This document shows positions 2,781 to 31,860 of a stretch of DNA of 32,096 bases, in pieces. Location: contig JAIBBR010000055.1 in assembly GCA_019694575.1 (NCBI GenBank), forward strand, positions 1 to 32,096, given 5' to 3'. The stretch comes from Myxococcaceae bacterium (lineage in GTDB: Bacteria; Myxococcota; Myxococcia; Myxococcales; Myxococcaceae). The notes beneath the pieces were generated by a model. The model saw nothing but the letters and a program-made list of their open reading frames with translations, had not been told where the DNA came from and did not search any database. Positions within the stretch are counted from its first letter, which is position 1, and each line of letters begins with the position of its first letter. A program made the translations under genes and the position numbers.

Positions 2781-2797
2781 GGGCCTGTCGACATATT
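2781..2797 (+). repeat. IS5-family terminal inverted repeat, left
   Basis: The 17 bases GGGCCTGTCGACATATT form the left end of the insertion sequence and match the right end without a mismatch. The TA just outside (2779-2780) pairs with the TA after the right end. The last base overlaps the transposase stop codon (TGA on the minus strand, 2799-2797). Confidence 0.93.
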
Positions 2798-3551
2798 CAT
2801 GCCAGCCACACACGGATAGAGGCGAACAAAACGAAGCCCAGGAAGTTCGTTGCAGTCTTTTCGTAGCGTGTCGCCACCCTCCGGTACCGCTTAATCTTGC
2901 ACCAGAAATTTTCGACAAGGTGCCGCTCCTTGTAGACGTGGCCGTCGATTTCTCGCTCGACCTTTCGGTTCTCCTTTGAAGGGATGACCGGTATCATCCC
3001 TTTCTTTTCAATAGCTTCGACGACGGCGTTTGAGTCGTAGCCTTTGTCGCCGATGAAGTTTTGGCCTTGGGCGAGTTCGATAAGCGTTGGAGCTTCGGTG
3101 ATGTCGTGAATGTTTCCCGGCGTGAGATGGACGTGGAGTGGATTACCGAGCCCGTCCACAAGAGCGTGGATTTTGGTGGTAAGGCCTCCGCGAGAGCGGC
3201 CAATACCCTGAGTTTTGGCCCCCCTTTTCCGCCTGCGGCGTCTTGGTGCGCCTTGGCGTACGACCCATCAGCGATGTTCGACTCGTGGTCAGCGTCCTTG
3301 GCGAATTCATTGAGAATTTTGTCAAAAATACCCTTCGCGTTCCAACGGGAGAAACGTTGGTGGATGGTTTGCCAGGGACCGAATCGTTCAGGCAAATCTC
3401 TCCAAGGTGCGCCCGTTTTGGCGATGTAAAAAATGGCATTCAGGAATGTGCGGGTCGGAACCTTCGATGGTTTGCCCCGCCTCCCCTGTTCAGGGGGCAA
3501 CAAAGGTTTCAAGCGCTCCCACTCATCGTCCCTGAGTTCATGTCGGTGCAT
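2797..3551 (-). CDS. IS5-family DDE transposase in two frames joined by a -1 frameshift
   Basis: The first frame starts at 3551 with MHRHELRDDEWERLKPLLPP and carries the DUF4096-like N-terminal domain and the first catalytic Asp (ADGSYAKAHQDAAG). After GGKGG the correct protein continues in the -1 frame as AKTQGIGRSRGGLTTKIHAL, then the second Asp in GDKGYDS and the catalytic Glu in RHLVENFWCKIKRYRR, ending at 2797. The switch lies on a minus-strand A4G6 run at 3228-3219, which is a good slippery sequence. The joined product would be about 250 residues, normal for the family. IS427-type elements are known to use two overlapping frames, so programmed frameshifting is the favoured explanation. 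A simple one-base indel that inactivates the gene cannot be excluded. Confidence 0.9.
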
Positions 3552-3704: not shown

Positions 3705-4978
3705 TAACCGCGCACCGCACGCCACTCGTCGAGCGGCTTCAAACTGCCTTGGTGAAAAATGTAAGCCCCGGCGATGCCGTCACCTGCCGCGTCTAACCCG
3801 TCGAGCTTCGCAATCGTCTTGGCGTCATCTTCGCGGCACAGCAACACCAACTCGCGCAGGCCCAAGTAAACGCGCCACGGGCCTTCACCCAATTTTTCGC
3901 GCAATATCGACTGCACGTTGGGCAGTAACAAGCGGGCCGCGTCATGGCCGTCTCCGCGCGCCAACGCCCATAAGCCCGTAGGAGAAGACGCCAACGCCAA
4001 CGCCTTGGGGTCGAACTCAATCGCGTGCACAGCGAGCACCGTCTTCGCCAAATTTGCCCATGCGGCTTGGTCGACTTCTTCGAGCGTCACGCCGTGACTG
4101 TTCGACACCGTCAGCGGCAGGTAACGCAAAAAATCGGGGTGCTCGAGCGCATAGCTCAGCCACAAACCCGCCGGGCCTTCACGCGTCATCAACCCCGTTA
4201 CCCGCTGCGCAAAACGGTCATCGCGCAAAACCGGCAGCACCTTCGACAACAAGTCGGCCCGCTCGGCCGGCAAGCCCAACACGTGCGCGGTGAGCTCTTC
4301 GGTAATCGACGTCACCGCGTCGTCGAGCGATTGCCCAGAGTCCATATAGCTTTGGTGCAGGCCTTTCAGCTCGAGCCGCGCCACGTCTCCGTCGGCCAAC
4401 TTCAAAAACAGCCGCTCTTTTTGCATCAAATGCGTCACCGCCCGCCCTGCCAGCCCGGCGCGCAGCGCTTTTGCAAACTCTTCGAGCGACGCCAGCATCG
4501 CCACAGGTTTGGCACCCGCTGACTCGAGCTCGCCCAACAGCTGCTGCGCTTCAGCATCGAACGGGTCTTTTTCGAGCACCGCCTTCACCAACGCTTCGGC
4601 CCGCGCCTGCTCGCCCCGGCGCATTGCAATCAGCGCCAGGCCTTTCATCGCCTCTAAGTCGGCTGGGTTCAACTGCAGCACCCGCTTCAACGGAGCCTCG
4701 GCCGCCGCGTAGCGCTCGACTGAGAAGTGCGCCCGCGCAATCGCCAACGGCACCTGCGCATCGTGGGGAAAATCTTTTTCGAGCCCCTTCAACAGGCCGA
4801 GCGCCGGTTCGGTGGCATCGGCATTGAGCAGCGCGTGCGCCACCGACAGCTTCAAGCTCAAACCGCCTTGCGCGCTGGCTTCGCGCTCCAACGCACGCAG
4901 CTCTTCGTCAGAGAGAATTTCTCCGGTTTCAACTTTGTGCAGCAAACGGTTCAGCTCTTGTGGGTTCACAGTTGGCAT
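3704..4978 (-). CDS. TPR repeat protein with an unassigned C-terminal domain
   Basis: The 424-residue protein starts MPTVNPQELNRLLHKVETGE. An in-frame ATG 21 codons upstream (5041) gives an Arg-rich extension that looks non-coding and would leave only 19 bp to the divergent dehydrogenase start, so 4978 is preferred. Residues 40-150 form about three tetratricopeptide-like helical hairpins, with alternating Ala/Leu and the N-P-A-D-L-E-A-x-x-G-L-A signature. The C-terminal part (about 170-424) is probably alpha/beta, contains the segment SHGVTLEEVDQAAWANL, and is not assigned with confidence. No signal peptide or membrane segment is seen, so a cytoplasmic scaffold-type role is inferred. The stop codon TAG is shared with the end of the IS5 element, and the coding sequence itself is not truncated. 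Confidence 0.75.
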   Translation of the reverse strand: MPTVNPQELNRLLHKVETGEILSDEELRALEREASAQGGLSLKLSVAHALLNADATEPALGLLKGLEKDFPHDAQVPLAIARAHFSVERYAAAEAPLKRVLQLNPADLEAMKGLALIAMRRGEQARAEALVKAVLEKDPFDAEAQQLLGELESAGAKPVAMLASLEEFAKALRAGLAGRAVTHLMQKERLFLKLADGDVARLELKGLHQSYMDSGQSLDDAVTSITEELTAHVLGLPAERADLLSKVLPVLRDDRFAQRVTGLMTREGPAGLWLSYALEHPDFLRYLPLTVSNSHGVTLEEVDQAAWANLAKTVLAVHAIEFDPKALALASSPTGLWALARGDGHDAARLLLPNVQSILREKLGEGPWRVYLGLRELVLLCREDDAKTIAKLDGLDAAGDGIAGAYIFHQGSLKPLDEWRAVRG

Positions 4979-30866: not shown

Positions 30867-30980
30867 TTTCGTGGCAGGGCTTTTAAGGGGCGAGCCGGGG
30901 TCGTTTTGCGCGGCGGGTTGCCGTCGTGAGGCCGTGCTCGGGCGATTTCGCGACGCGGTTTTCGTTCAGTTGCGGACAGT

Positions 30981-31020
30981 GGGTCAGTTTGGGTACTTGC
31001 GCGGGTACACGAATTGACCC
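30981..31020. repeat. Imperfect inverted repeat, possible IS end
   Basis: GGGTCAGTTTGGGTAC (30981-30996) faces GGGTACACGAATTGACCC (31003-31020), with 12 of 16 paired positions. ACAG and CTGT a few bases further out also match. It could be a relic of an insertion-sequence end, since it lies just before an IS91-family remnant, or a hairpin at the end of the cstA transcript. The identity is not established. Confidence 0.4.
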
Positions 31021-31060
31021 AGCACCCTGTTGTCAGCCTGCAGGGTAGCTTGGAGGTGCG

Positions 31061-31183
31061 ATGCTCTCGCCTCACAGCGCGGCGCGTACGGTGGTGGCCT
31101 TCAGCTGCAAGGGGCGTGGGTGGCGCCCTTTCTGTACCGCCCGACGCTCCGTCGAAACGGGAGCCCACCTTGAAGCAGTACTA
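31061..31183 (+). pseudogene. IS91-family transposase remnant
   Basis: The plus-strand frame has GGAGG at 31052-31056 before an ATG at 31061. It reads VVAFSCKGRGWRPFCTARRS followed by VETGAHLEAVL. This is the zinc-binding region of IS91-type (Y2) transposases, usually CKGRGFCPSC followed by an RR and an ETAAHL-like segment. Only about 35 residues match. The first Cys of CPSC has become Arg, and the match stops near 31183. The relaxase-like catalytic domain is absent, so this is debris of a former element. It overlaps no other gene, although the frame continues in antisense over the Hint gene. Confidence 0.7.
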
Positions 31184-31218
31184 ACCAGTGATGGTACTTC
31201 ACGATATTCAGTGAGTGA

Positions 31219-31860
31219 TCACGGGCCAGCGTCTGACGTACCGGCATCGGCGGCGCAGTCAACACAGGTTGCAGAGCTACCGCCGCCAGAACACTGGACA
31301 CGCCCTTGGCCGCCGTTCTGACAGGTACATGTCTCGTTGTTCATGGTGGGTTGTCGGTCGGGCAAATAACAGAGCGCAGGATTTTGCTTGTTGTGCACGA
31401 GCACATCGTTTGCGATGAAGTTGTGCAATTCGTGATCGACTGTCAGATCAAAAACTTCGTGCACCCCAGCAAACGTCGAAACCTGCTCCACCGTGACTGG
31501 AATGACGCCCTCCGCGACTACCCTAAGAAGATGTGTCTTCTCGCCGAGCGCCCAGTCGCCGGCAGGTGCCCACTGCCGAGAAATAGGGCAGTAAAGTGGA
31601 TGATCACTGGTGGCCAGCAACTCAAGCCCGGCATAGCTGAGGCGTACGCATTCACGGTGAGCACTGCGGGTAGTCGAAACCGTTGCGGTCACGAGCTGAC
31701 CAGAATTGGGATCGACGCACAAAATCTGGTCTCCCTCTTCAACTTCCTCAATTTGACGATCTCCGCCTGGAGTTCGCACCCTGCTACCCCGAGCAATGCA
31801 GGACGTTGGGCCACAAGCCAGTGCACCGACTAAGGAAGTACCTGCCAAAAGCTTCTTCAC
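31219..31860 (-). CDS. Lipoprotein with an intein-like Hint (hedgehog/intein) domain and Cys-rich tail
   Basis: The 213-residue protein starts at GTG 31860, with GAGGT five bases upstream. Residues 1-16 (MKKLLAGTSLVGALAC) are a lipoprotein signal with Cys16. Residues 21-157 form a complete Hint domain: Cys21 in CIARGSRVRTPGG, block B TSDHPL (Thr84 and His87), and the C-terminal block NFIANDVLVHN ending His156-Asn157. The +1 residue is Lys158, not Cys/Ser/Thr, as in bacterial intein-like (BIL) domains. A 56-residue tail with six cysteines and a Gly/Ser-rich part follows. Hint domains self-cleave or splice through a thioester at the first Cys and Asn cyclisation. Here the N-extein after signal removal would be only CGPTS. 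The role is unknown. Confidence 0.82.
   Translation of the reverse strand: MKKLLAGTSLVGALACGPTSCIARGSRVRTPGGDRQIEEVEEGDQILCVDPNSGQLVTATVSTTRSAHRECVRLSYAGLELLATSDHPLYCPISRQWAPAGDWALGEKTHLLRVVAEGVIPVTVEQVSTFAGVHEVFDLTVDHELHNFIANDVLVHNKQNPALCYLPDRQPTMNNETCTCQNGGQGRVQCSGGGSSATCVDCAADAGTSDAGP

Follow-up and report, generated by a model that had tools for sequence, protein, structure and literature searches.

The bacterial intein-like (BIL) domains of type A are said to go back to the work of Amitai in 2003 and of Dassa in 2004. In these domains a thioester is formed at residue 1 and the last asparagine cyclises, the outcome being mostly cleavage together with some ligation through the free amine of the C-fragment (PMC4031507, PMC7664689). 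The type-C BIL of Bdellovibrio has a PPS-1 domain (PMC9185962). The protein described here, encoded at positions 31219-31860 of a 32,096-nucleotide stretch of DNA from a Myxococcaceae bacterium (the window), has in common with type-A BILs such as CthBIL4 (PDB 2lwy) the fold, the size (137 residues), Cys1, and the TxxH motif, as well as the terminal His-Asn pair, the absence of Cys, Ser, or Thr at the +1 position, and variable flanks. It differs from them in having 1-7 residues of lipoprotein anchor as its N-terminal flank and, almost without exception, a lysine at +1, and its cargo corresponds to what in paralogues is the ordinary body of a lipoprotein. Judged from its sequence, the protein is best described as a real and conserved variant of the type-A BILs, with its Hint domain placed at the predicted lipid anchor of surface lipoproteins. 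That the domain serves to separate the lipid anchor from the cargo is a reading to which we give slightly better than even odds. The flanks indicate that the Hint domain would work outside the cytoplasm, next to a lipid anchor, and that anchor and cargo would be the parts separated, and thus the role of a BIL for its host becomes directly testable with natural flanks. In the open-access literature, which leaves most subscription journals outside, no paper was found on Hint domains joined to lipoprotein anchors in such a layout. The features of the locus are as follows.

31219 to 31860, minus strand: gene for a 213-residue lipoprotein-type Hint protein (sequence; paralogue and orthologues).
31816 to 31860, minus strand: signal peptide, residues 1-15, with a KK n-region and a short hydrophobic stretch (sequence; type kept in relatives).
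31801 to 31815, minus strand: predicted mature N-extein, Cys16-Gly-Pro-Thr-Ser20, with Cys16 the predicted lipidated residue (lipobox rule; spacer of 0-6 residues in 28 proteins).
31390 to 31800, minus strand: Hint (type-A BIL) domain, Cys21 to Asn157 (profiles, alignment, model, and structure matches).
31600 to 31611, minus strand: block B, Thr84-Ser-Asp-His87 (TSDH), with Thr and His invariant.
31423 to 31449, minus strand: block F, Asp138 to His146, both residues invariant among relatives.
31387 to 31395, minus strand: His156-Asn157, the Asn cyclisation motif, and the +1 residue Lys158 (invariant in 16 relatives).
31222 to 31389, minus strand: C-extein or cargo, a 56-residue six-Cys tail with DAG-type low complexity at its end (alignment and tail search).
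31073 to 31180, plus strand: remnant of an ISCR/IS91-type transposase, downstream of the gene and outside it (24.4 bits, E = 9.7e-6).

The reading frame begins with a GTG codon, and GAGG lies ∼5 bases upstream. The N-terminus displays the basic n-region, the short hydrophobic region, and the lipobox ending in cysteine that characterize a lipoprotein. The lipobox with Cys16 reads MKKLLAGTSLVGALAC, and its -3 residue is an alanine; in many relatives it is a leucine. The cysteines of the tail are located at positions 164, 178, 180, 189, 199, and 202. The residue numbers that the preliminary description had assigned to the lipobox, the Hint domain, block B, the His-Asn pair, and Lys158 were all correct on translation, as was its count of six cysteines in the tail. 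The six-Cys tail was queried alone for Hint-free homologues and none was found; the matches were members of the family and two other proteins, which on reading were not Cys-rich lipoproteins. The tails of two relatives (L043 and L045) are lengthened by several Cys-rich repeats similar to the tail considered here.

The NCBIfam model intein_Cterm matched the protein at 23.6 bits, above its cut-off of 15.6, and PF14890 and PF13403 matched at 5e-7 and 3e-5, respectively, both under their curated cut-offs. The profile matches are modest and right in kind, and the intein-like match is not due to chance. A sequence search against solved structures yielded whole-domain matches that included a BIL domain from Clostridium thermocellum and the splicing domain of Mtu RecA. 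An AlphaFold2 model, built on 40 sequences from the window and the loci, has pLDDT values of ∼97 across the Hint domain and below 50 across most of the tail. With Foldseek and VIA-align, residues 21-157 of the model align with whole inteins and BIL domains from the first residue to the last (Z ∼20), and in the predicted model the horseshoe Hint fold spans the entire domain.

The fold, Cys1, and the block B Thr/His pair place the protein within the HINT superfamily. Its terminal His-Asn pair is followed by Lys158 rather than by Cys, Ser, or Thr, and its host is variable and non-conserved in that the tails differ and, in part of the family, evolve faster; both features are those of a type-A BIL. 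The class 1 mini-inteins, including those of Ssp/Npu DnaB and the Mtu RecA splicing domain, share the fold over residues 21-157 (Z ∼20) and the catalytic residues. In contrast to these, the protein here has Lys158 where a class 1 intein is followed by Cys, Ser, or Thr, it carries no endonuclease, and its host is a short lipoprotein with a variable tail and not a conserved site in an essential protein. Type-B BILs have no C-terminal His-Asn, and the pair is present here. The Hedgehog autoprocessing domain (1at0, 6tyy) is alike in fold (Z ∼18.5) and provides a link to lipid chemistry. A Hog domain, however, lacks the terminal His-Asn pair and leads into a sterol region, whereas the N-extein here is predicted to be lipid-bearing already and the domain closes with His-Asn before a Cys-rich tail.

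A second copy of the gene in the same genome shows 47% identity over its length and is laid out in the same way. Within the order 145 genomes were searched, which revealed ∼20 further relatives, nearly all from the same family of Myxococcota, and a pattern and alignment search of public genomes added members from Nannocystis pusilla DSM 53165, from Polyangia and Planctomycetota, from Myxococcaceae and Archangium MAGs, and from other groups. Invariant across the 16 relatives that were aligned are Cys21, Thr84, Asp86, His87, Asp138, His143, His146, His156, Asn157, and Lys158. The residues for both intein half-reactions, thioester formation and Asn cyclisation, have thus been kept, which goes beyond what the preliminary description had claimed for these key residues. 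Between pairs of signal-bearing relatives, dN/dS of the Hint core is mostly 0.16-0.43, and that of the tail is 0.13-0.41 in one genus and reaches 0.8-1.0 in a second, all of these values having been estimated by the simple Nei-Gojobori method, with several pairs showing a high dS. Purifying selection on the Hint core and a freer tail in part of the family is what one would expect if the domain processes a flank that varies. The selection on the core speaks, together with the invariance of the catalytic residues, against an inert Hint domain that is a folded spacer only or a decaying remnant, an explanation we regard as very unlikely even though remnants do exist: L051 is without most of its Hint domain and L049 lies in two frames. 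The former (4230-4510) is pseudogene-like and is found in a conserved neighbourhood, where the signal and approximately the first 35 Hint residues are followed by a stop and then by tail-like DAG text; the latter is a gene split across two reading frames.

A signal peptide and the His-Asn pair are absent from three relatives, L013 (L013 and L046 are one gene), L047, and L048, and these proteins have hardly any tail. L013 and L047 end in VGDA in place of His-Asn, and L048 shares its gene neighbourhood with signal-bearing relatives of its genus. On the tree the losses of His-Asn amount to two separate events. Few as these events are, the disappearance of His-Asn together with the anchor and the tail fits a role for the pair in parting the one from the other. 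Homologues without Cys1 or the terminal Asn, which the preliminary description had named as evidence against its idea of a self-cleaving domain, thus do occur, but only among members that are also without signal and tail, and in this form they favour that idea.

The lipobox rule was a simple one that called for a basic residue near the start, a hydrophobic stretch, and a PROSITE-like box. By this rule, the lipobox Cys lies 0-6 residues ahead of Cys1 in 28 of the 83 Hint domains examined. The 28 proteins belong to Myxococcota, Planctomycetota, and a small number of other groups, and in all of them the Hint domain ends in HNK, although one of the search patterns included VHNK[QST], so that the conservation of Lys at +1, or of VHNK, in distant phyla was partly selected for and is inflated. 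Inside the family the +1 lysine was also recovered by a search without that pattern, and in the RHS-like Hint domains of the same phylum the residue is Gly, Asn, Thr, or Tyr. The spacer is zero in L010, L011, and L012 (Myxococcota) and in L099 and L102 (Planctomycetota), such that one lipidated Cys would make up the entire N-extein; if active, the domain would be an intein with a lipidated-peptide N-extein as short as one residue. In another group, from Polyangia, 23-42 residues separate the lipobox Cys and Cys1. The long internal Hint domains, RHS-like and others, have no box by the rule except for one false positive (L018), where the call near Cys1 falls deep within a frame of 2325 codons. 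The combination of a lipid anchor, an intein-like domain, and a near-zero N-extein, put forward earlier for this one gene, is therefore supported as a recurrent and conserved architecture. Note that L077 has no lipobox and a membrane-anchor-like N-terminus, and that L075 and L076 (Nannocystis) have a proline before the Cys; lipidation is thus not universal, which counts against the separator reading.

With spacers of 0-6 residues the N-exteins are mostly anchor and little else, as would suit a quite different use of the domain, in which the Cys1 thioester passes the lipidated N-extein, down to one lipid-bearing Cys, to an amine of peptidoglycan or of a second protein. Transfer of a ubiquitin-like N-extein is the proposed activity of the BUBL BIL domains, and the Tetrahymena BUBL BIL2 domain (6tmm, 6y75), a BIL with possible N-extein transfer, is among the closest folds, although the N-extein there is a ubiquitin-like protein and here a lipopeptide, and the sequence identity is ∼19%. 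No acceptor is known, however, the +1 lysine could equally serve as one, and the conservation of the His-Asn pair points to a role for the C-side reaction as well. Conjugation of this kind is accordingly given a low probability.

Two other layouts were observed during these comparisons. L017, L019-L021, and L023-L031, all from Myxococcaceae, are larger lipoproteins in which ∼430-460 residues extend from the lipobox to a C-terminal Hint domain; two of them end in VGDA at the His-Asn position, and His-Asn was not found in the rest. This group forms a type-B-like lipoprotein family. L074 (1356-2885) is a single lipoprotein with a tandem pair of Hint domains, each ending in VHNK, and a Cys-containing stretch between them.

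The main new evidence comes from the placement of the Hint domain at the anchor-linker junction of unrelated cargoes. In L146/L149 of Nannocystis pusilla, the lipobox Cys is followed by NDESH, the Hint domain, KSTCAYTTCGDEFPGTTGTTEP..., and then by beta-propeller-type repeats, a name that rests on the repeats since the cargo has no Pfam match. Paralogues without a Hint domain in the same genome (L151/L154, L153/L157, and L158, the three that were read, with four further matches left out) proceed from the lipobox Cys through a Thr/Ser-rich linker to similar repeats. In L073/L160 the Hint domain precedes a GD-rich linker, which is followed by a DUF1554-like cargo; a PF22807 match in L073 was distrusted as it falls on the GD repeat. 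Six of the Hint-less DUF1554-like paralogues have a lipobox and linker and two have no lipobox by the rule, with three others cut by contig ends and one not placeable left out of the count. In L071/L173 the Hint domain lies ahead of a chlorophyllase/PAF-acetylhydrolase-like enzyme (an alpha/beta hydrolase, with the Pfam match above cut-off), and all five Hint-less paralogues consist of lipobox, linker, and enzyme. Altogether, 14 of the 16 readable Hint-less paralogues of the three cargo kinds are plain lipoproteins composed of a lipobox, a low-complexity linker, and the cargo. In three kinds of lipoprotein that are unrelated to one another, the Hint domain therefore occupies the anchor-linker junction, an argument drawn from relatives, the tail of the protein encoded in the window having no Hint-free homologue found.

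The same comparison bears on splicing, in which the Hint domain, as a domesticated mini-intein, would be excised and the lipidated pentapeptide joined to the tail. Without the segment from Cys1 to Asn the three larger proteins would resemble their Hint-less lipoprotein paralogues, the residues for both half-reactions are all kept, and type-A BILs are able to ligate without a +1 nucleophile (PMC4031507, citing Aranko 2013). Clean splicing would leave an ordinary small lipoprotein and no release, and to that extent it counts against a separator. Yet the +1 position holds no Cys, Ser, or Thr, cleavage dominates in BILs according to reviews (PMC4031507, PMC7664689), there is neither a homing endonuclease nor a single conserved host site, and a fast-changing short tail would be an odd product to conserve. 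Splicing thus appears rather unlikely, and it is given about half the weight of release.

For separation of anchor and cargo, the chemical steps, the lipidation, and the location that we infer for the protein are the following. After Sec export, Lgt and LspA would convert it to a lipoprotein with the mature N-terminus lipidated Cys16-Gly-Pro-Thr-Ser. In Myxococcus xanthus, inner-membrane lipoproteins typically have Lys at +2 (PMC3222651); the Gly at this position here would make an outer-membrane place more likely. The Hint domain would fold outside the cytoplasm, and the carbonyl of Ser20 would be taken by Cys21 as a thioester. Cyclisation of Asn157 would cut the chain before Lys158 and free the Cys-rich tail. 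The Cys21 thioester would then be hydrolysed or be attacked by an amine, to which the lipopeptide would pass. The main outcome would be separation of the cargo from the anchored Hint domain, that is, a delayed or conditional shedding, and a minor product might be some tail ligated back to the lipopeptide, as is known for type-A BILs. Release is favoured as the main outcome because the +1 residue is not a usual nucleophile and the tail is variable. If active, such a domain would allow protease-free shedding or re-anchoring of surface lipoproteins. It is unlikely, but conceivable, that the +1 lysine is itself the acceptor, its alpha- or epsilon-amine taking the thioester-bound lipopeptide; the Hint domain would then remove itself and leave a re-lipidated cargo, or the anchor would be passed to another protein. 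If true, this would be a bacterial counterpart to the lipid transfer of Hedgehog, from the opposite side.

The ISCR/IS91-type remnant on the plus strand begins ∼40 bases past the stop codon of the gene, and pieces of the intergenic region 30870-31215 are repeated elsewhere in the genome with 73-89% identity. Between the start codon and the contig end upstream of it there are 236 bases. The final 126 bases of the contig (31971-32096) match the end of one other contig (G000:C36) exactly, their sole other occurrence, and are absent from relatives, an arrangement that resembles an assembly fork caused by a repeat. A relative of the gene in another genus lies in a neighbourhood conserved in five genomes. 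The IS91 debris of the preliminary description thus does adjoin the gene; the recent mobility that it was taken to suggest is unproven and, given that conserved neighbourhood, not needed. A search of neighbouring genes found no recurrent partner across loci, the one shared syntenic block being that of a single genus, and libraries of phage and defence genes gave one weak match of no known function and none for defence.

These surroundings also bear on processing of the polymorphic-toxin type, whereby a pretoxin HINT would free the tail as a small toxin or bacteriocin. As here, the pretoxin HINT (PF07591) precedes a variable tail; the secreted tail is Cys-rich, and part of the family has tails that vary faster than the Hint domain. 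The PF07591 match is weak, however, at 19.3 bits against a cut-off of 27.7; the protein is without a trafficking domain or a recognised toxin, and a hydrolase and repeats are found among the other cargoes. Across loci no recurrent immunity-like neighbour was found, with the contig of the present gene ending nearby, and the defence-system search gave no match. Toxin processing is consequently regarded as highly improbable. Elsewhere in the window, at 2797-3551 on the minus strand, an IS4/IS5-type transposase is encoded in two overlapping frames, by programmed frameshift or through decay.
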